Assembly: GCA_030647555.1 (NCBI GenBank)
Contig: JAUSJG010000004.1
Span: forward strand, 1-36,660
DNA length: 36,660 bases
DNA from: a bacterium
GTDB taxonomy: Bacteria > Patescibacteriota > Andersenbacteria > UBA10190 > CAIZMI01
Direction: 5' to 3'
The translations under genes and the position numbers were made by a program. Shown in pieces: positions 1 through 9,725 of this stretch; the first letter of the stretch is position 1; each line of letters starts with the position of its first letter. The notes under the pieces were generated by a model that had not been told where the DNA came from, made no database searches, and worked only from the letters and a program-made list of their open reading frames with translations.

Positions 1-91
1 TATTCTAAATCCGGCGCGAAAAGAAAGTTTTTCTGCGGTGTTGCGCGCAGGGCGCGCGGTGGCGGGGCTGGCCTCCATTATTCGGTTACGT

Positions 92-285
92 TCAGCCGTT
101 TCGCATAAAATGGGTTCGAGCCGTTTCAAAAAGACGCTCCAAGATGTGACTTTCCGTTTTTTTACCGCTTTTTTCATTGGCGACGTCCAACGCCGACCAC
201 GGCTCGACGGACGCGTTTTGTGGGGGGAAACTGTCGCCGACTGGCGGACGCGGACGCATTTCGCGGTTCGCCAAGACGAGGTTCG
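92..285 (-). pseudogene. C-terminal fragment of a serine recombinase (inverted duplicate)
   Basis: On the minus strand this stretch encodes about 65 residues, from NLVLANREM through WSALDVANEK to a stop at 92-94. They are nearly identical to the C-terminal segment of the intact recombinase at 318-1946 (NLVLANREM...ALDVANEKSGQKTESQILER). The two versions part after ILER: this copy ends LFETARTHFMRNG, while the intact gene continues into antisense tRNA. No resolvase domain is attached, so it is a remnant or a silent alternative C-terminus. It sits head-to-head with the intact gene, so an inversion between the repeat arms would connect the recombinase body to this ending. Confidence 0.7.
135..285. 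repeat. Left arm of 151-bp inverted repeat flanking the recombinase
   Basis: Read as reverse complement, this segment matches 1717-1867 over 151 bases with only about five or six mismatches, most of them clustered at 142-146. Its outer end CGCTCCA equals the last seven bases of the tRNA-Gly gene that ends in the right arm. The two arms enclose the unique part of the recombinase gene (about 286-1716). Confidence 0.92.
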
Positions 286-317
286 TCTCCCGCGCGCTTA
301 TTTTGTCTAATAATTTT

Positions 318-1946
318 ATGAACATAAACAACAACAAATTCTTTCTCTATGCCCGCAAGTCAACGGATGTGGAAGATAAACAGGTTTTATCTATTGAAGC
401 GCAGATCGCGGAATTACGCGCGTATGCTGTTCAATCTGGATTAAATATCGTTGAGGAGTTTATCGAAAAACAGTCTGCCAAAATTCCGGGCAGACCGATC
501 TTCGGGAAAATGCTGGAACGTATCGAGAAAGGTGAAGCAAGCGGAGTTTTGGCGTGGCACCCCGATAGATTGGCGCGTAATTCCGTGGATGGCGGGAAAA
601 TAATCTATCTCGTTGATTGCGGACATATTACAGCCTTGAAATTCGCGCAGTTTTGGTTTGAGCCAACACCGCAAGGAAAGTTTATGCTCTCTATCGCTTT
701 CGGACAAAGTAAATACTATGTGGACGCGCTTTCTGAAAATACAAAACGGGGCTTGCGCCAAAAAGTAAGGCGTGGTGAATATCCCTCGCTTGCCCCTGTT
801 GGCTATCTCAATGATTCGCGGACAAAAACGGTGGTGGTGGATAAAAAACGCGCTTCGCTTATTCGCAGGGCGTTTGAGCTGTATGCCAAGAACGAAAGCA
901 GGTTAGAGGATATCTCAAACTTTTTGGCGCAATCCGGGATCACATCAAGGAATGGAAAACATCTCCACCGCAACAGAGTTACGTTTATTCTTTCCAATCC
1001 GTTTTACTACGGACATTTTCGCTATGCCGGAGAGATTCACGAAGGCAAGCACTCGCCAATCGTTTCAAAGAAAATTTTTGATCAGACGCAGGAAATACTG
1101 AAACAACGAGGCAGACCGCACCACAAGCAGAAAAATGAACCACAAGCATATTGTGGACTGCTTTCCTGCGCCTCATGCGGAATGATGATCACCGGCGAAT
1201 ACAAGGTTAAAAAACAGAAAAATGGGAATGTGCATAACTATACTTATTATCATTGCTCTAAAAAATCTAAAACTATCAAATGTCCCGAGCCCTGTATTCG
1301 CCAAGAGGAACTGGACAAGCAAATTTCCTCTTTGCTGCAAAAATATTCTTTGAGTAAAGACTGGGCGGAAAAAATGCGTGCAATGTTGGAAAAAGAAAAA
1401 TTGGAAGTCACACAATCATCCACCGCTTTTGTTCAGGAAAACCAAAACCGAATTCGCGTCATCCAAACGAAACTCCAGCGACTTCTTGACGGGTATTTGG
1501 AGCAGGATATTGAACGAGAAATCTATCGTACCGAAAAAGCAAAACTACTATCTGAAAAGAAGTCGCTGGAGGAGCAAACGGTGCGGATTGAACAAAAGCG
1601 GACGGGCTGGCTCGAACCGATGGCAAAATGGCTAAAAGAGGCGGAAAACGTGTCTAAAATCGCGCGGGAGAGCGACCTTTTTGCGAAAAAGGTTGCAGCC
1701 AAAGAAATCTTTGGCTCGAACCTCGTCTTGGCGAACCGCGAAATGCGTCCGCGTCCGCCAGTCGGCGACAGTTTCCCCCCACAAAACGCGTCCGTCGAGC
1801 CGTGGTCGGCGTTGGACGTCGCCAATGAAAAAAGCGGTCAAAAAACGGAAAGTCAGATTCTGGAGCGGGTAACGAGAATCGGACTCGTATCTCAGCCTTG
1901 GGAAGGCCGCGTTCTACCACTGAACCATACCCGCATAGATTTTTAA
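318..1946 (+). CDS. Large serine recombinase (resolvase/invertase family integrase)
   Basis: This is a 542-residue large serine recombinase that would cut and rejoin DNA at short attachment sites. The N-terminal resolvase domain has FFLYARKSTD (nucleophile Ser15) and WHPDRLARN. A recombinase domain follows (GYLNDSRTKT, ILSNPFYYGHF), then a zinc ribbon (CASCG ... YYHCSKK) and a coiled coil at about residues 355-450. ATG 318 is chosen because the family N-terminus begins there; the upstream extension to 177 lies in the left repeat arm. I see no Shine-Dalgarno sequence. The last ~75 residues come from the right repeat arm and then from antisense tRNA-Gly, so the C-terminus depends on the insertion site. 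The arrangement suggests an element integrated at the 3' end of the tRNA gene. Confidence 0.93.
   Translation: MNINNNKFFLYARKSTDVEDKQVLSIEAQIAELRAYAVQSGLNIVEEFIEKQSAKIPGRPIFGKMLERIEKGEASGVLAWHPDRLARNSVDGGKIIYLVDCGHITALKFAQFWFEPTPQGKFMLSIAFGQSKYYVDALSENTKRGLRQKVRRGEYPSLAPVGYLNDSRTKTVVVDKKRASLIRRAFELYAKNESRLEDISNFLAQSGITSRNGKHLHRNRVTFILSNPFYYGHFRYAGEIHEGKHSPIVSKKIFDQTQEILKQRGRPHHKQKNEPQAYCGLLSCASCGMMITGEYKVKKQKNGNVHNYTYYHCSKKSKTIKCPEPCIRQEELDKQISSLLQKYSLSKDWAEKMRAMLEKEKLEVTQSSTAFVQENQNRIRVIQTKLQRLLDGYLEQDIEREIYRTEKAKLLSEKKSLEEQTVRIEQKRTGWLEPMAKWLKEAENVSKIARESDLFAKKVAAKEIFGSNLVLANREMRPRPPVGDSFPPQNASVEPWSALDVANEKSGQKTESQILERVTRIGLVSQPWEGRVLPLNHTRIDF
1717..1867. repeat. Right arm of 151-bp inverted repeat flanking the recombinase
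   Basis: This is the partner of 135-285 in inverted orientation. It contains the C-terminal codons of the recombinase and, at 1861-1867, the final seven bases of the minus-strand tRNA-Gly. The overlap with the tRNA 3' end is what would be expected if the tRNA end is the attachment site. Confidence 0.92.
1861..1934 (-). tRNA. tRNA-Gly(CCC)
   Basis: The minus strand folds as a complete cloverleaf: acceptor GCGGGTA/TACCCGC, D stem GTTC/GAAC, anticodon stem CGGCC/GGCTG with loop TTCCCAA (anticodon CCC), T stem ACGAG/CTCGT, discriminator T and an encoded CCA. It is 74 nt long. The recombinase reading frame passes through it antisense, so its 3' end is probably the integration site of the recombinase element. 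Confidence 0.93.
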
Positions 1947-3107: not shown

Positions 3108-4194
3108 ATGACCTCCAAAGAAGCCCAAGAATTAGTGCTGAGACTGCAAACAGTTTCAGACCGGCTTTGAGTTAGGTAAAAAGCGTATCCGGTTAGTGGA
3201 AATAGGCAAGAAACTGGAAGATCCGGCTCTGTGGAACGATCAAAAACAGGCCACACTGTTACAACGCGAACAATCCGCTTTGCAAAAAGAAGCGGGAAAA
3301 TTAGACGCGCTAAAAAAGGAAATCGCGGATGCGACAGAATTATTATCAATTATTGCGGAAGAAGACGAAGCATCGAAAAAAGAAATTGAAGCGACATTTC
3401 GAAAAATCACAAAGGAACTTTCCAGTTTGGAATTGTTAACCTACTTTTCCGATAAACACGATAATTCGGCGGCAATCATCACGCTATCCGCCGGTGCGGG
3501 GGGTACGGAAGCGCAGGATTGGACTGCCATGCTTTCACGAATGTATTTGCGATATGCTGAAGCACAAGGCTGGAATACGCAAGTATTGGACGAAAATCGT
3601 GGCCAAGAGACAGGTTATAAACACATTACAATTCGGATGGAAGGGGACTATGTTTATGGAAAAATAAAACACGAGGCGGGTGTGCATCGGCTCGTTAGAC
3701 AATCACCGTTTAATGCCGATAATTTACGCCAAACATCGTTTGCGTTATTGGATGTAATCCCGGAAGTGGGGAAGGAAGAAGTGATTATTCGGCCGGAAGA
3801 TTTGGATTTTGAAGCTTTTCGCAGTGGTGGAAAAGGTGGACAGAACGTCAATAAAGTTTCCACGGCAGTTCGGATTAAACATGTTCCGACAGGCATTACA
3901 ATCGCTTGTTCAACCGAACGCAGTCAGGCGCAAAATCGCGAACGCGTGATGACAATGTTGGCCAGTAAACTGGAACATTTGAGAGAACAACAACACGCTC
4001 AAAGCATCGCCGATGTGCGGGGTGAGGTTAAATCCGCTGAATGGGGCAACCAAATTCGTTCGTATGTTTTGCATCCGTATAAAATGGTGAAAGACCATCG
4101 GACAGAAGTGGAAACATCGGATGCAGAGGGAGTTTTGGATGGGGGATTGGATGAATTTATTACCGCAATGGTGACGCGGGGGAAAGATAAATAA
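3108..4194 (+). CDS. prfB: Peptide chain release factor 2, with programmed +1 frameshift
   Basis: RF2 recognises UAA and UGA stops and releases the finished peptide from the ribosome. The gene is read as 3108-3167 (20 codons from ATG), a +1 shift over T3168, then 3169-4194, giving about 361 residues, normal for RF2. The shifted frame runs LELGKKRIRL...LEDPALWND, the usual RF2 N-terminus. The RF2-specific SPF tripeptide (RQSPFNAD) recognises the stop codon, and SGGKGGQNVNK carries the catalytic GGQ. The frameshift makes synthesis depend on RF2 level. It is followed by an AT-rich palindrome and ftsE. Confidence 0.97.
3165..3170 (+). promoter_or_regulatory. prfB +1 frameshift site CTT TGA
   Basis: In the prfB frame CTT (Leu) is followed directly by TGA, the canonical slippery site of bacterial RF2 genes. 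The AGGGGG-type internal Shine-Dalgarno element usually found three bases upstream is absent (the sequence is CAGACCGG), so slippage may be weaker or differently stimulated. Confidence 0.9.
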
Positions 4195-4197
4195 ATT

Positions 4198-4325
4198 ATC
4201 AATTTTCAATGGCCAATTATCAATTAATGTTCAATTTTTAAATTATCAATTATCAAAAATCCGCAGCGTTTGATAATTAGAGTATTTGATAATTAATTGA
4301 ACATTGATCATTGAGAATTGAAAAT
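4198..4325. repeat. AT-rich imperfect palindrome
   Basis: The left side (TTATCAATTTTCAATGG..., TTAATGTTCAATTTT, AATTATCAA) is mirrored by the right side (TTGATAATTAATTGAACA, TTGAGAATTGAAAATT), giving a long imperfect inverted repeat between prfB and ftsE. It contains no gene. It could form a transcript-end hairpin or be a small relic element. Confidence 0.6.
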
Positions 4326-4389
4326 TAGCCAAAGCTGATTTTCCAGTTGGGTTAGAAATATCTGTTGAATTATCTTTCATCGACGTTTG

Positions 4390-4404: not shown

Positions 4405-5085
4405 GTGATTCTCTTCCAAAACGTCAGCAAAAATTATACTAAGGGAACCTCCGCGTTGGACGACATAAACCTCGAAATACAAACCGGTGAATTCGTTTCA
4501 ATTGTAGGACAGAGTGGTGCGGGAAAAAGTACGTTACTGCGCTTATTGTTTGCCGAGGAATTTCCCACGAATGGTTCGGTGATTATCGATGGTTGGGATA
4601 TTACATCTATAAAACCTTGGCAAATTCCGCACCTACGCCGTCAGATTGGCGTTGTGTTTCAGGATTTCAAACTGATTACCGATAAGACGGCTTTTGAGAA
4701 TGTCGCTTTTGCGATGGAAGTCACCGGTGAAGATACACGAGATATAAAAAGAACGGTTCCCCAATTATTAAAACTTGTGAACCTTTCCGATAAAACTGAA
4801 AACTATCCTTGGCAAATGTCCGGTGGTGAACAGCAACGTGTTGCTCTCGCGCGAGCATTGGCTTTCAAGCCACAGATTATTTTAGCTGACGAACCGACAG
4901 GTAATCTCGACGCATTACACGCGTGGGATATTATTCAGTTGCTTCTTAAAATTAATAAATTGGGCACGACGATCTTGCTCGCTTCACATGATGAAGCGAT
5001 TGTTAACGCCGTGAAAAAACGCGTCGTGACATTAGATAAGGGAAAAGTTGTTCGTGATCAAAAAACAGGGAGATACGCACTATGA
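4405..5085 (+). CDS. ftsE: Cell division ATP-binding protein FtsE
   Basis: FtsE is the cytoplasmic ATPase of the FtsEX complex, which links the divisome to control of peptidoglycan hydrolases. This 226-residue protein shows Walker [10 protein letters not shown], a Q-loop (VVFQDFKLI), the ABC signature MSGGEQQR, Walker B IILADEPT and a switch His (LLASHDEA). The start is GTG 4405, since a perfect TATAAT ends six bases before it and family homology begins there; the upstream in-frame TTG overlaps the promoter. The stop overlaps the ftsX start by four bases (ATGA), indicating translational coupling. Confidence 0.95.
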
Positions 5086-6002
5086 AAATGCAAGCACTGG
5101 GTCGGGCAATTAAATCCGGCGCAACCCATTTTTGGCGCAATATCTGGTTGTCGTTGGCGGCAACGGGGGTAATGGTTCTCACATTGGCGATGCTCGCGTT
5201 AATAATGGTTGTGTCTGTTCTTGGACAAAACATTCTTAGTGGGATTGAGTCTAAGGTGGATATAACCGTATTTATGGCGGAAGATTCGGCGGAAGCGGCA
5301 ATTATGGCCGTGAAAAACGATATCGAGGGTTTAAAGCAGGTTTCCGAGGTTGTATATGTGTCAAAAGAAAAATCGCTTTCCGCTTTTCAAGAAAAGCATA
5401 AAAATAATCCGCGTATTGCTCAAGCTTTAACGGAGCTTGGTAGTAATCCAATGCAGGCGGCACTGGTGGTGAAGGCGGAAAATATTGAAGCCTATAACGC
5501 GATTAATGAATCTCTAAAAAGTCCCAAATATCAACGCTTGATTGCGCGGGTTACCTATGAAGACAATAGTGAAATTATTACGCGATTGTCGGCTGTAATT
5601 AAAACGGCGCGAAAGGTTGGGATGGCTATCACTCTCGCGTTGGCGGTAATCGCGGTGCTTGTCACATTCAACACGATTCGTTTGGCTATTTACGGTTACC
5701 ATCGGGAAATTGAAATTATGACGTTGGTTGGGGCCTCACCATGGTTTATTAAGGGGCCGTTCGTAATTGAAGGGATAATTTCCGGGTTTGTGGCTTCCTT
5801 TTTTACTATTCTTCTGCTTTACCCATTTCTACGGATAGTCTCGCCCGGTGTAGGCGCGTTTTTTGTGGATAATCAATTCAGTATCTATCAGTGGGCGAAC
5901 GATAATTTTGTGATGGTGATCGCATTGGTGGGTAGCGCGGGAATTTTGCTTGGCGCGATCAGTAGTATCATTGCTGTCCAACGCTATCTGAAGGCGCAGT
6001 AA
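5082..6002 (+). CDS. ftsX: Cell division protein FtsX
   Basis: FtsX is the membrane partner of FtsE. The 306-residue protein has the family layout: a membrane segment at about residues 22-44, an extracellular domain of about 120 residues, then three membrane segments near 172-198, 225-250 and 275-300 (permease fold, with NTIRLAIYGYHREIEIMTLVGA before the third). It overlaps ftsE by four bases. It converges with the minus-strand gene ending at 6019, with only a 16-base gap. Confidence 0.94.
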   Translation: MKMQALGRAIKSGATHFWRNIWLSLAATGVMVLTLAMLALIMVVSVLGQNILSGIESKVDITVFMAEDSAEAAIMAVKNDIEGLKQVSEVVYVSKEKSLSAFQEKHKNNPRIAQALTELGSNPMQAALVVKAENIEAYNAINESLKSPKYQRLIARVTYEDNSEIITRLSAVIKTARKVGMAITLALAVIAVLVTFNTIRLAIYGYHREIEIMTLVGASPWFIKGPFVIEGIISGFVASFFTILLLYPFLRIVSPGVGAFFVDNQFSIYQWANDNFVMVIALVGSAGILLGAISSIIAVQRYLKAQ

Positions 6003-6018
6003 AAAATATATCGAGATT

Positions 6019-6567
6019 TTATATCGTTGCTTTCCGCAACGAGAAATCTAATTTTACGACCTTAACTTTCTTCGCTTTTGGCACGAAGATTTTTTTACTG
6101 GTTGTTTCGTAGCCTCTTCTGGAACAAAATACGGTATAATTTCCCGGTTGTAAAAGAATAAAGAATAAACCGGAATTGTCGGTAATACGTACCTGGACAA
6201 ATCTGTCTCCGGAAGCGACGCGAATCGTTGCTATGTCTAAAGGTTGACCGGTAGAAGCGTCAACAACAGTGCCTGTTTGTTTTCGACGTCTCAACATTTG
6301 AATTGTTTTGTAACCAAAAACGATAACATAAAGACATTCAAAAATAATGTTGAGTGTCGAGGGTTCATTAACCAAAAAATATGTATTAAGGAACACACCC
6401 AGAATCAAAAAAGGAAAGCTGTTTATATCAAGCCATTCTATGAATTTGGAATACGAGTGTATTATAAAATGCTGGAATGGTGTTCTTTTGTTTTCACGAT
6501 CCATGAGAACAAACATACGTGGCAAAACCTTACTTTCAGTCTCGTTTTTGATTGGTTGATCAACCAT
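6019..6567 (-). CDS. Membrane protein with C-terminal carboxypeptidase-regulatory-like domain
   Basis: This 182-residue protein has two hydrophobic segments (about residues 49-66 and 70-90, FPFLILGVFLNTYFLV and IIFECLYVIVFGY). A basic stretch (RRRKQ) and a small beta-sandwich domain at 97-182 follow: GTVVDASTGQPLDIATIRV, DNSGLFFILLQPGNYTV, RRGYETTSKKI. This is the carboxypeptidase regulatory-like / Cna-B-type repeat signature, usually an adhesion or scaffold module. The basic stretch suggests that the domain may be cytoplasmic. It overlaps the upstream gene by eight bases (ATGGTTGA), so the pair is translationally coupled. Confidence 0.75.
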   Translation of the reverse strand: MVDQPIKNETESKVLPRMFVLMDRENKRTPFQHFIIHSYSKFIEWLDINSFPFLILGVFLNTYFLVNEPSTLNIIFECLYVIVFGYKTIQMLRRRKQTGTVVDASTGQPLDIATIRVASGDRFVQVRITDNSGLFFILLQPGNYTVFCSRRGYETTSKKIFVPKAKKVKVVKLDFSLRKATI

Positions 6568-7636
6568 TGAGATTCATATTAGAGCGTTTAAAGTTAATTA
6601 ATCCGGAACGATATATAAATTCACCGGATTGCATTGCAAACATTGGTTCTTCAACGGAAGGGAAAATATAGCCCGGTTTTTGAACCACGAACTTGTATTC
6701 ACCTTGTTGCAATAAATCACCGGCATTTCCCGTTTTAGAATCACTTATCCATGTGGCACGAACTTTTCCGTCGGGTGAAAAAATATTGATAATAGCTCCG
6801 CCAACAGGTTTGCCTGTTACGGCGTCGATGACTTTTACCCAGTGCTCGGGACGCCGACGGTCTGTTACAAAAATGGCCGAAGAAATACTAAATAATGAAA
6901 AGGCAATCGGTATCATACCAACAACAGGGATCGCCATTACAATCGCCTTTATTCCCTTACCCAGAATAGTTTTGCTACAAGCCGCGATGGCGCCGGAACC
7001 GGAACTGTTAAAATCATCATCCGTATTAAAAGAGGTTGTGGTTGAAGTTGTGGGAGAACCGGATGGCTCCGGGGACGGCTCGGCTGTTGCACTTGGAGTA
7101 AGTGTAGATAGTGGTTCAACCACAGGAGAAGGAGAAGGGGTGGGGGTGGCTAAAATGTCCCGGCAAACTACAACCTTTCTCTCTTTTTCATATTTACCCG
7201 TAACATCATACCCGACGCTATTTGCCTCAAAGGTTGTTCGAATGATAAAAGATGAACAAATATTGGTGCCCCCAGCGCGCCCTTCTTTTTCAAAATCCAG
7301 AGGAATTTTGACGTCAAATTCTTGAAGATGCGTTTGATCGATGGGGTTGATGTGTTGGATAATCGTGGGATCGATAGTTTTGTCTTTTGATGTGGTAATA
7401 ATTTGTGTTCGTAACCCACTCTTAAAAAACTCATGATAAATTGATTCATTAAGCTCAATTCGCATATTTAATATTTGGCCGTAATTGGAGTTTATATTGC
7501 CAATGGGCTCTGTTTCGGATTTTTCGAGGATTTTTATTGCCGAAAAAGCATCCATCCAGGTGGTAGCTCTTGCTTGTGGCGCGATTAAAATAGCAGTTGA
7601 TATCAGTATTCCAAACCCTATTTTACCTATTTTCAT
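6560..7636 (-). CDS. Exported membrane protein with Pro/Ser/Thr linker and carboxypeptidase-regulatory-like domain
   Basis: This 358-residue protein starts with a signal peptide (ILISTAILIAPQARA, cut near residue 25). An N-terminal domain of about 140 residues follows, then a low-complexity P/S/T/E linker (about 168-210), a hydrophobic segment near 235-262 (IVMAIPVVGMIPIAFSLFS) followed by DRRRPE, and a C-terminal domain with VIDAVTGKPVGGAIINI and LLQQGEYKFVVQKPGY. That domain matches the type in the downstream coupled gene. A minus-strand TACAAT six bases before the ATG suggests a leaderless transcript. The likely role is in the cell envelope; the N-terminal domain is unrecognised. Confidence 0.75.
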   Translation of the reverse strand: MKIGKIGFGILISTAILIAPQARATTWMDAFSAIKILEKSETEPIGNINSNYGQILNMRIELNESIYHEFFKSGLRTQIITTSKDKTIDPTIIQHINPIDQTHLQEFDVKIPLDFEKEGRAGGTNICSSFIIRTTFEANSVGYDVTGKYEKERKVVVCRDILATPTPSPSPVVEPLSTLTPSATAEPSPEPSGSPTTSTTTSFNTDDDFNSSGSGAIAACSKTILGKGIKAIVMAIPVVGMIPIAFSLFSISSAIFVTDRRRPEHWVKVIDAVTGKPVGGAIINIFSPDGKVRATWISDSKTGNAGDLLQQGEYKFVVQKPGYIFPSVEEPMFAMQSGEFIYRSGLINFKRSNMNLNG

Positions 7637-7642
7637 GATATT

Positions 7643-7648
7643 ATTGTA
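7643..7648 (-). promoter_or_regulatory. -10 box of the 6560-7636 gene
   Basis: On the minus strand TACAAT lies six bases before the ATG at 7636. This matches the leaderless spacing seen repeatedly in this window. Confidence 0.6.
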
Positions 7649-7699
7649 CTAAACTTACTGTAAAGCGTCCAAATTAATACAAACGTAACTTTTGAGTAC

Positions 7700-7884
7700 T
7701 TAGGACTTGGTAATTAATAAACGCTTCATCTTATGTTCAATCCATCTCCAAATACAACTGCTTCTCAATCAAAAATTTTTCAACGTACGTTAAGTACGTC
7801 TCAAAATTTTGTTCAATCAAAGACAGTCGTCTTTGAAGCGCATTGAACATAATATTAAAGCGTTTATTAATTACCAAGCCCTAA
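7700..7884. repeat. Giant-hairpin element, copy A
   Basis: This 185-bp imperfect palindrome has outer arms of 27 nt (7700-7726 with 7858-7884) with one mismatch, beginning TTAGGACTTGG and ending CCAAGCCCTAA. Inner arms of about 60 nt are partly complementary, and the tip is ACGTAC-GTTAA-GTACGT. The core blocks CATCTTATGTTCAAT, ACTGCTTCTCAATCA and AGCGCATTGAACATAAT recur in copies B and C. It fills the divergent intergenic region, and its last base is the A of the ATG of the DUF4012 gene. Confidence 0.9.
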
Positions 7885-9725
7885 TGAAATTAAATAAAAA
7901 AACTATCATATTAGTGTTGTTGGGATTCCTATTAATATTGATGGTTGGTTTTTTTGTACTAAAATTACGCGCCGTGTATGGAGATGTACAGGGAGCAGTT
8001 AGTGCAAAGAGTGAACTTCTGTCCGCTATTAATTCTAAAGATACAAAGCGTGTCAAAATAGCAATTATCACAACAAGGGAAGCCGTCACCAAGGTTGATG
8101 AGGATTTAAACATTTTTCGCTATTTTGCTTTTGTTCCAAGGGTAAAAAGGGAAATGAATACGGCAAAAGATGTAATCTTGCAAACAAACTATTTGCTGGA
8201 TTCAGCCAGTCTGGCAATCAAAATTATTAATGAATCGGGGGTGGATGTTATATCGCCAAATATGGATGTGACGAGCGCGGAAGCGTTGAAAAAAATTGAT
8301 ACCGCTCTTGTAAACAATAAATCGGATATGCAAAAATTGTTGGAGCGCGGGGATAAAATTATTGTTAATAAAGTCGCGAGTAGCAGTTTTCGGCAAATCA
8401 GATCCCTACACGAACAAATTACGGGTTATTCAAAAATAGCTCAACAGGTGGAAAGATTGATTATAACCACAGAAGATGGTACGGCTACTCTTTTGGGTTT
8501 ACGCGGTGAAAAAAAATACTTATTAATGTTTGAAAACAGTGATGAGCTTCGTCCTGGTGGTGGCTTGATTTCAACTTATGGTTTAATCACTCTAAAAGAC
8601 GGACAAACATCCAATCTTTTCATCGACCATGTTCAAAATTTGAAACTTTTTTATACTACGCCGATTGAACTTAATCCCGACCCAATTCAGCAAACAATGC
8701 GACACCAGAAGAATTTATATATTTACGATGCCAATTGGTTGGGAGATCCCAACGAATGGTTGGACAAAATTTTTCGTTCTTGGAATGCCCAAAAACCGCT
8801 TGTCGATGGGATAATAGTAATGAGTACGAAGATATTGGAAGATGTTGTACGGCGATACGAACCGCTTCGATTGCCTGGAACAAATGAAGAATTTCGCGCG
8901 GATGACATAGTCGCTTCCTTGGATTACAACCTTGATGTACAGCATGGTCTTTATGATGTTAGTAAATATAAGGTTTTGGGCCCCCTGGTCGACGAATTGC
9001 TGAAAAATATTAAGTCTTCAAAGCCTACGCAACTTAAAGAAATTTTAGTGAACGCGAAAAAACGTTTTCAATCACGCGATCTTTTATTTTATACAAAGGA
9101 TGAAATTGTAAATGATGCGTTAAAAAACAATGGCATTCAAAACGAAATCACTGTGCCGGCCGGTGACGAGTTTTACGCGCTGGGGGCTAACTTGGGAAGC
9201 GGTAAGGCCGATGGACGAATGAAACGCTCGCTTGCGATGCGCGTTTATGCTCAAGAAATTTATCCGGCAACTTCGGCTACAATTACGCAAGATTACACCG
9301 CGGGTGTTGATGATTTTCGTGCCAGTGGATATTATGGATATCTCCGTTTCTTTTTACCTCTTGGAAGCAAGCTTGGTGCTTTTGATAATTTTAACTTGGT
9401 CGAAGATGAAAATATAATAGAGGCAGGGCGACAGGTTTACGGTAACTATTTCAGTGTTGCCACGGGAACAAAAAAAGACGTCGCGATTACATACGCGTTG
9501 GCCGAGAGCGTTGCCAAGCAAATTAAAGCTGGAAATTATTCGTTAACTCTGCGCAAGCAAGGTGGCGTAGAAATGCCGTTTGAGGTGAAAATAAATATTC
9601 CCGATAGTTGGAAAAATCCGGTAATTACGACATCCGACGGAACAACCGAATTTACAAAAAACCAAAGCACGGTCACATGGAAGGGGATATTAACAAAGGA
9701 TATGCAAATCGAAATTAAAAAATAG
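7884..9725 (+). CDS. DUF4012 domain-containing membrane protein
   Basis: This 613-residue protein is anchored by one N-terminal membrane helix (about residues 5-25, IILVLLGFLLILMVGFFVL). A helical region follows and then the DUF4012 domain, whose hallmark YLLMFENSDELRPGGGLIS is visible at about residues 213-231. DUF4012 proteins are common in CPR and Chloroflexi-like bacteria; their function is not established, although a cell-surface role is usual. The start is ATG 7884, where the hydrophobic anchor begins; the longer frame from 7809 runs inside the giant hairpin. Promoter elements, if any, must lie in the hairpin's right arm. Confidence 0.88.
   Translation: MKLNKKTIILVLLGFLLILMVGFFVLKLRAVYGDVQGAVSAKSELLSAINSKDTKRVKIAIITTREAVTKVDEDLNIFRYFAFVPRVKREMNTAKDVILQTNYLLDSASLAIKIINESGVDVISPNMDVTSAEALKKIDTALVNNKSDMQKLLERGDKIIVNKVASSSFRQIRSLHEQITGYSKIAQQVERLIITTEDGTATLLGLRGEKKYLLMFENSDELRPGGGLISTYGLITLKDGQTSNLFIDHVQNLKLFYTTPIELNPDPIQQTMRHQKNLYIYDANWLGDPNEWLDKIFRSWNAQKPLVDGIIVMSTKILEDVVRRYEPLRLPGTNEEFRADDIVASLDYNLDVQHGLYDVSKYKVLGPLVDELLKNIKSSKPTQLKEILVNAKKRFQSRDLLFYTKDEIVNDALKNNGIQNEITVPAGDEFYALGANLGSGKADGRMKRSLAMRVYAQEIYPATSATITQDYTAGVDDFRASGYYGYLRFFLPLGSKLGAFDNFNLVEDENIIEAGRQVYGNYFSVATGTKKDVAITYALAESVAKQIKAGNYSLTLRKQGGVEMPFEVKINIPDSWKNPVITTSDGTTEFTKNQSTVTWKGILTKDMQIEIKK

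Follow-up and report, generated by a model that had tools for sequence, protein, structure and literature searches.

A serine recombinase gene between inverted arms at a tRNA-Gly gene, probably one end of an integrative element with twin inverted attP sites in Patescibacteria

The window analysed here covers the opening 36.7 kb of contig C4 from a 1.32 Mb genome bin (G000). It very probably holds the tRNA-side end of an integrative mobile element that has inverted twin attP sites and a large serine integrase directed at the 3' end of a tRNA gene. Comparison of related sequences shows the features on which this reading is based, namely the architecture, the crossover point, a shared GTTCGA motif, the concerted change of the arms, the turnover of cargo and the occurrence of both orientations. 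Counted from tRNA-Gly, the proposed order is tRNA-core-P' (attL), the recombinase gene facing the tRNA, an inverted P'-core-P (an intact second attP), cargo, and P-core-chromosome (attR). The window contains attL and the internal attP only, the cargo arc and attR being outside the contig.

A repeat search of the window recovered the near-identical 151-bp arms reported in the initial annotation. They are inverted, 97% complementary and 1431 nt apart, which is well above chance; all four mismatches are at most about 30 nt away from the core, and the inner ~116 nt are without differences. The right arm with tRNA-Gly is assigned as attL (tRNA, core CGCTCCA, half-site P'), and the left arm with the sequence preceding it (1-141) as a second complete attP of opposite direction (P, core, P'). 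The features are as follows.

1-134, plus strand: P half-site arm of the internal attP, truncated by the contig start; fits the P consensus of 44 loci and is identical to C7:1-134
114-119, plus strand: GTTCGA motif within the P half-site arm
135-141, plus strand: core CGCTCCA of the internal attP; the attP/attL/attR junction overlaps in relatives intersect at tRNA positions 72-73
137-138, plus strand: inferred exchange dinucleotide
135-285, plus strand: left inverted arm (core and P' copy), 151 nt, 97% complementary to 1717-1867
318-1946, plus strand: large serine recombinase gene, conserved to about residue 476, its tail crossing the core into antisense tRNA-Gly
1717-1867, minus strand: right inverted arm (core and P'), overlapping the recombinase 3' end
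1861-1867, minus strand: core CGCTCCA at the tRNA-Gly 3' end, in attL
1861-1934, minus strand: tRNA-Gly (ccc), the insertion target, located with ARAGORN

The recombinase (542 aa) contains the Resolvase, Recombinase and Zn_ribbon_recom domains (Pfam PF00239, PF07508, PF13408). Its catalytic residues R13, S15, R84 and R87 are invariant in an alignment with nine relatives, and by sequence the nearest solved structures are those of the A118 integrase. The different tails noted earlier beyond the two arms are both as described: the recombinase ends in ...ILERVTRIGLVSQPWEGRVLPLNHTRIDF and the reading frame of the left arm in ...ILERLFETARTHFMRNG-stop. The right tail proved to be antisense tRNA-Gly, with the stop codon 85 nt beyond the tRNA 3' end. 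Among relatives, recombinase homology ends near a GSN motif at residue ~476, and the tails that follow are unrelated read-through into the tRNA or into P. Switching of the C-terminus, which had been suggested as the purpose of the arrangement, looks incidental on this comparison; the tail is probably whatever lies past the core and has no function of its own. The bin also encodes a second, more distant serine recombinase (G000:C13:103216-104271, 452 aa); the stretch examined for it contains no inverted arms. The window has another inverted repeat of 41 nt with AT-rich arms at 4194-4326, immediately past prfB.

Relatives were collected as the nearest recombinases in 59 related genomes and, through a GTDB contig scan, as the 80 best loci from named genomes, nearly all Patescibacteria; a phylum-wide sample of 379 genomes overlaps these sets in part, and the counts are not additive. 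In the 59 genomes, the 3' ends of the nearest recombinase genes lie on the 3' ends of tRNA or tmRNA genes of many kinds, inverted arms of ~60-190 nt again bound the genes, and in alignable junctions the right arm reaches a few nucleotides into the tRNA. The recombinase 3' end coincides with a tRNA 3' end in 62 of the 80 named loci, and near-identical arms (median 135 nt, 99.2%) are present in 66; in seven, arms were undetected without obvious truncation by a contig end. Close relatives of the window recombinase were found in 79 of the 379 sampled genomes. An arrangement first regarded as unusual for such a genome is not unusual in the phylum, and the feature itself reaches past the window into a cargo segment and attR. 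Since the same architecture is found in single-contig genomes (e.g. G017, G140 and G113), it is no artefact of short contigs. One single-contig genome has two elements close by in opposite directions, at tRNA-Gln and tRNA-Leu (L256, G168:C1; genes at 4726-6150 and 6739-8160 in reverse-complement coordinates). The contig starts at most 700 nt upstream of the gene in 29 of the 80 loci, a recurrent assembly break for which the inverted P repeat may account.

In a recombinase tree, arms are present in 75 of 91 rows of one well-supported clade and in none of the 20 rows outside it, where the check covered mostly 1.5 kb upstream and longer stretches for two loci; several of these arm-less outgroup rows also sit at tRNAs. 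The arms are near-identical within one element and differ mostly by ~5-28% between related elements, which indicates that the two arms of an element change together (concerted evolution). A search of a viral collection returned distant or partial relatives only, and no clear circle.

Alignment of all three junctions in five cases gave attL as tRNA-core-P', the internal attP as an inverted P-core-P', and attR as P-core-chromosome. The overlaps of these junctions have tRNA positions 72-73 in common. These are the final base of the acceptor stem and the discriminator base, which we infer to be the exchange dinucleotide. A second inverted P bounding the cargo segment and followed by attR was found in 23 of the 80 named loci and in five more from whole genomes; these 28 relatives have attL at the tRNA 3' end and a far-end attR with the repeated core. 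The elements measure 2.7-10.3 kb (median 5.3 kb), and their P copies have a median length of 187 nt and 98.5% identity. Terminator-like hairpins, present in 9% of control stretches, occur toward the tRNA in 37 of 70 P' arms, where they may restore tRNA termination following insertion. Such a hairpin also stands on the chromosome side of attR in 10 of 26 cases, which would fit a tRNA terminator that has been displaced.

The P half-site consensus of 44 loci reads ...AAAATAgGTTCGAgCtTgGTtgTAaAa...C/ACCA, compared with GGTTCGA.TCC...C/ACCA in the tRNA. GTTCGA is the near-universal T-loop sequence of tRNA. In P, TTCGA starts 23 nt from position 73 (33 of 44 loci), and in the tRNA 19 nt from it, as set by tRNA geometry. 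The shift between the two is accordingly 4 bp, or 5 bp in four loci, with the remainder unfitted or unanchorable; in most of the 44 loci GTTCGA therefore lies 4-5 bp farther from the core in P than in the tRNA, a spacing like that of attP and attB. In A118-type integrases, the zinc-ribbon motif of attB is 5 bp closer to the centre than that of attP (PMC3783163). These distances suggest that the zinc ribbon recognizes the T-loop motif, an ability that would make many tRNA genes accessible to one integrase family.

At the contig end where the window begins, the first 141 nt are identical to those of contig C7. Because further contig pairs of the bin likewise have exactly 141 nt in common, this identity is attributed to an assembly branch at k=141. 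If the P of the window has an inverted twin, a single missing cargo arc has to separate C4 from C7. This predicted adjacency is confirmed at the level of gene order in three relatives: G001, G002 and G003 all have the C7 gene on the strand of the C4 prfB gene, at a distance of ~3-5 kb from it and with tRNA-Gly in between. C7:1-141 is the candidate attR of the window element. Comparison of all contig ends of the bin, in which two contigs are N-masked, revealed no contig with its cargo. C7 (L008) carries three P-core-P' junctions of the same direction (1-169, 3312-3403 and 4444-4595) between gene blocks that include two DUF3800 genes; they are probably what earlier insertions at the same tRNA-Gly left behind. 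G001, a candidate empty site, has kept the gene order and has its own rearranged tRNA-Gly region. There (L226, G001:C55), positions 5573-5629 hold 57 nt identical to the 5' part of the window tRNA-Gly, near a second, diverged tRNA-Gly at 5178-5249, which looks like replacement of a displaced native tRNA. Elsewhere in the bin, G000:C27:61-125 and G000:C25:14790-14846, both near contig ends, are 79% alike to window positions 20-85 and may belong to the same family of P-like repeats.

Compared between species, the gene is oriented normally in 62 of the named loci and flipped in three, with the target RNA on its 5' side in these three of the 80: L147 (tmRNA), L137 (tRNA-Gly) and L158 (tRNA-Ala). 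The phylum-wide sample added a fourth flipped locus, L247 (tRNA-Tyr). L147, the sole complete flipped element, has attL at its 5' arm, P at its 3' arm and a second inverted P ~3.2 kb beyond, and its recombinase appears frameshifted; the contigs of L137 and L158 stop at the 3' side of the gene, as expected from the repeat there. Since flipped insertions exist, either attP is usable for docking or the arc inverts before insertion. For the A118 integrase, recombination of attP x attP reaches less than 5% of the usual rate, and none is detected for attL x attP without a helper (PMC3556126); flipping while integrated would therefore be expected to occur rarely unless a helper protein assists. The bias toward a gene facing the tRNA is strong, so flipping is not free. 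As a cause of this bias, a tRNA read-through switch that turns the recombinase on in the flipped state was considered; it is weakened by the terminator-like hairpins in the P' arms.

The invertible cassette proposed in the initial annotation stands in part: the gene does lie between inverted recombination sites and occurs in both orientations relative to the target RNA across relatives, but with its arms it very probably forms one end of a mobile element and no lone phase-switch cassette. A recombinase that flips its own gene while integrated, as a regulated switch of C-terminus or promoter context, would account for inverted arms with identical cores around the gene and for the two orientations in relatives. 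It agrees poorly with the unconserved tails, with ~95% of insertions being in one orientation and with the A118 integrase, for which no attL x attP recombination is detected without a helper (PMC3556126), while cargo, attR and exchangeable contents are traits of a mobile element; we regard such a switch as distinctly unlikely.

The same-direction junctions between gene blocks on C7, together with varied cargo that differs between close relatives, could also be read as an integron-like platform, with an attI-like site upstream of the gene and arrays that gain and lose cargo cassettes, each cassette bringing a single P-core-P' junction. However, the internal site is inverted relative to both attL and the array, and the reading was set aside on this ground; moreover, most relatives have one cargo segment and no array, and repeated insertion at the same tRNA explains the C7 junctions equally well, leaving such a platform unlikely. 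A left arm derived from the decayed end of a second, opposite element, named at the outset as the scenario that would refute a cassette, or from an assembly artefact at the contig end, would fit the start of the window at a contig end and the 141-nt branch in common with C7. This is extremely improbable, as undecayed arms are found in 66 of the 80 relatives, single-contig genomes included, and the arms, near-identical within an element and diverging between elements, change in concert.

Under the preferred reading of an integrative element with twin attP sites, the integrase would join attP to the tRNA 3' end, and excision would yield a circle with two inverted attP copies of roughly 300 bp each, split into an integrase arc of ~1.6 kb and a cargo arc of ~1-8 kb. 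The orientation of an insertion would depend on which of the two attP copies pairs with the tRNA, or on a slow attP x attP inversion within the circle; the twin sites may serve cargo exchange or circle upkeep. The cargo is unrelated between elements and includes restriction-modification systems, GmrSD, a reverse transcriptase, HydF with radical-SAM enzymes, LeuRS, alcohol dehydrogenase and transposase, among others. In L153 and L154, homology extends across the gene arc and P and ends at the cargo, which is entirely different and has been exchanged exactly between the P copies. No replication or partition gene common to the elements was present among the 55 cargo proteins scanned, no phage genes were seen in the scanned cargo, and no circular form was observed.

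Patescibacteria have reduced genomes, and their gene gain is poorly known. The elements carry restriction systems, metabolic enzymes and tRNA synthetases, and their kind is widespread in the phylum and apparently undescribed. We found no published description of twin opposed attP sites in one integrase element, or in Patescibacteria, in a literature that was mostly open-access and contained no preprints, which makes this a weak absence. We suggest tentatively that the elements could form a distinct class of gene-capture element in Patescibacteria, in which twin inverted attP sites create an integrase arc and a swappable cargo arc, the T-loop-like GTTCGA opens many tRNA genes to one integrase family, and inversion or exchange drives cargo turnover. 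The survey also provides mapped att pairs for many new integrases that apparently use a universal tRNA motif, which could aid DNA insertion in bacteria without tools.

Among known systems, the large serine integrases of the A118/Listeria type share the domain order, the attP/attB-like shift of the outer motif and the short shared core with the Patescibacteria element, which differs in targeting the 3' ends of many kinds of tRNA, in its two complete inverted attP sites and in the absence of phage genes from the scanned cargo. Genomic islands inserted at tRNA genes likewise restore the tRNA on insertion at its 3' end and have a core copy at the far end. Their usual integrase is of the tyrosine type, whereas the Patescibacteria element has a serine integrase, an inverted internal attP and only one conserved gene. 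The yeast 2-micron plasmid (Flp/FRT) carries its recombinase gene in one of the arcs between two head-to-head recombination sites (PMC6594588), an arrangement that resembles the two inverted sites dividing the predicted circle (inverted P and P' copies in 28 relatives); in contrast, the element described here combines a serine recombinase with chromosomal insertion, and no partition or replication genes were found in the cargo scanned. Integrons are similar as recombinase platforms with exchangeable cargo, and junction repeats stand in a row on C7, but here the recombinase is of the serine type in place of the tyrosine recombinase IntI, the att sites are double-stranded, the second site is inverted and there is usually one multi-gene cargo segment. 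Invertible switches such as Hin and shufflons also combine a recombinase with inverted sites flanking a segment, and both orientations are likewise seen across relatives of the window element; in the latter, however, one orientation strongly predominates and the sites are the predicted attL and attP of a mobile element.
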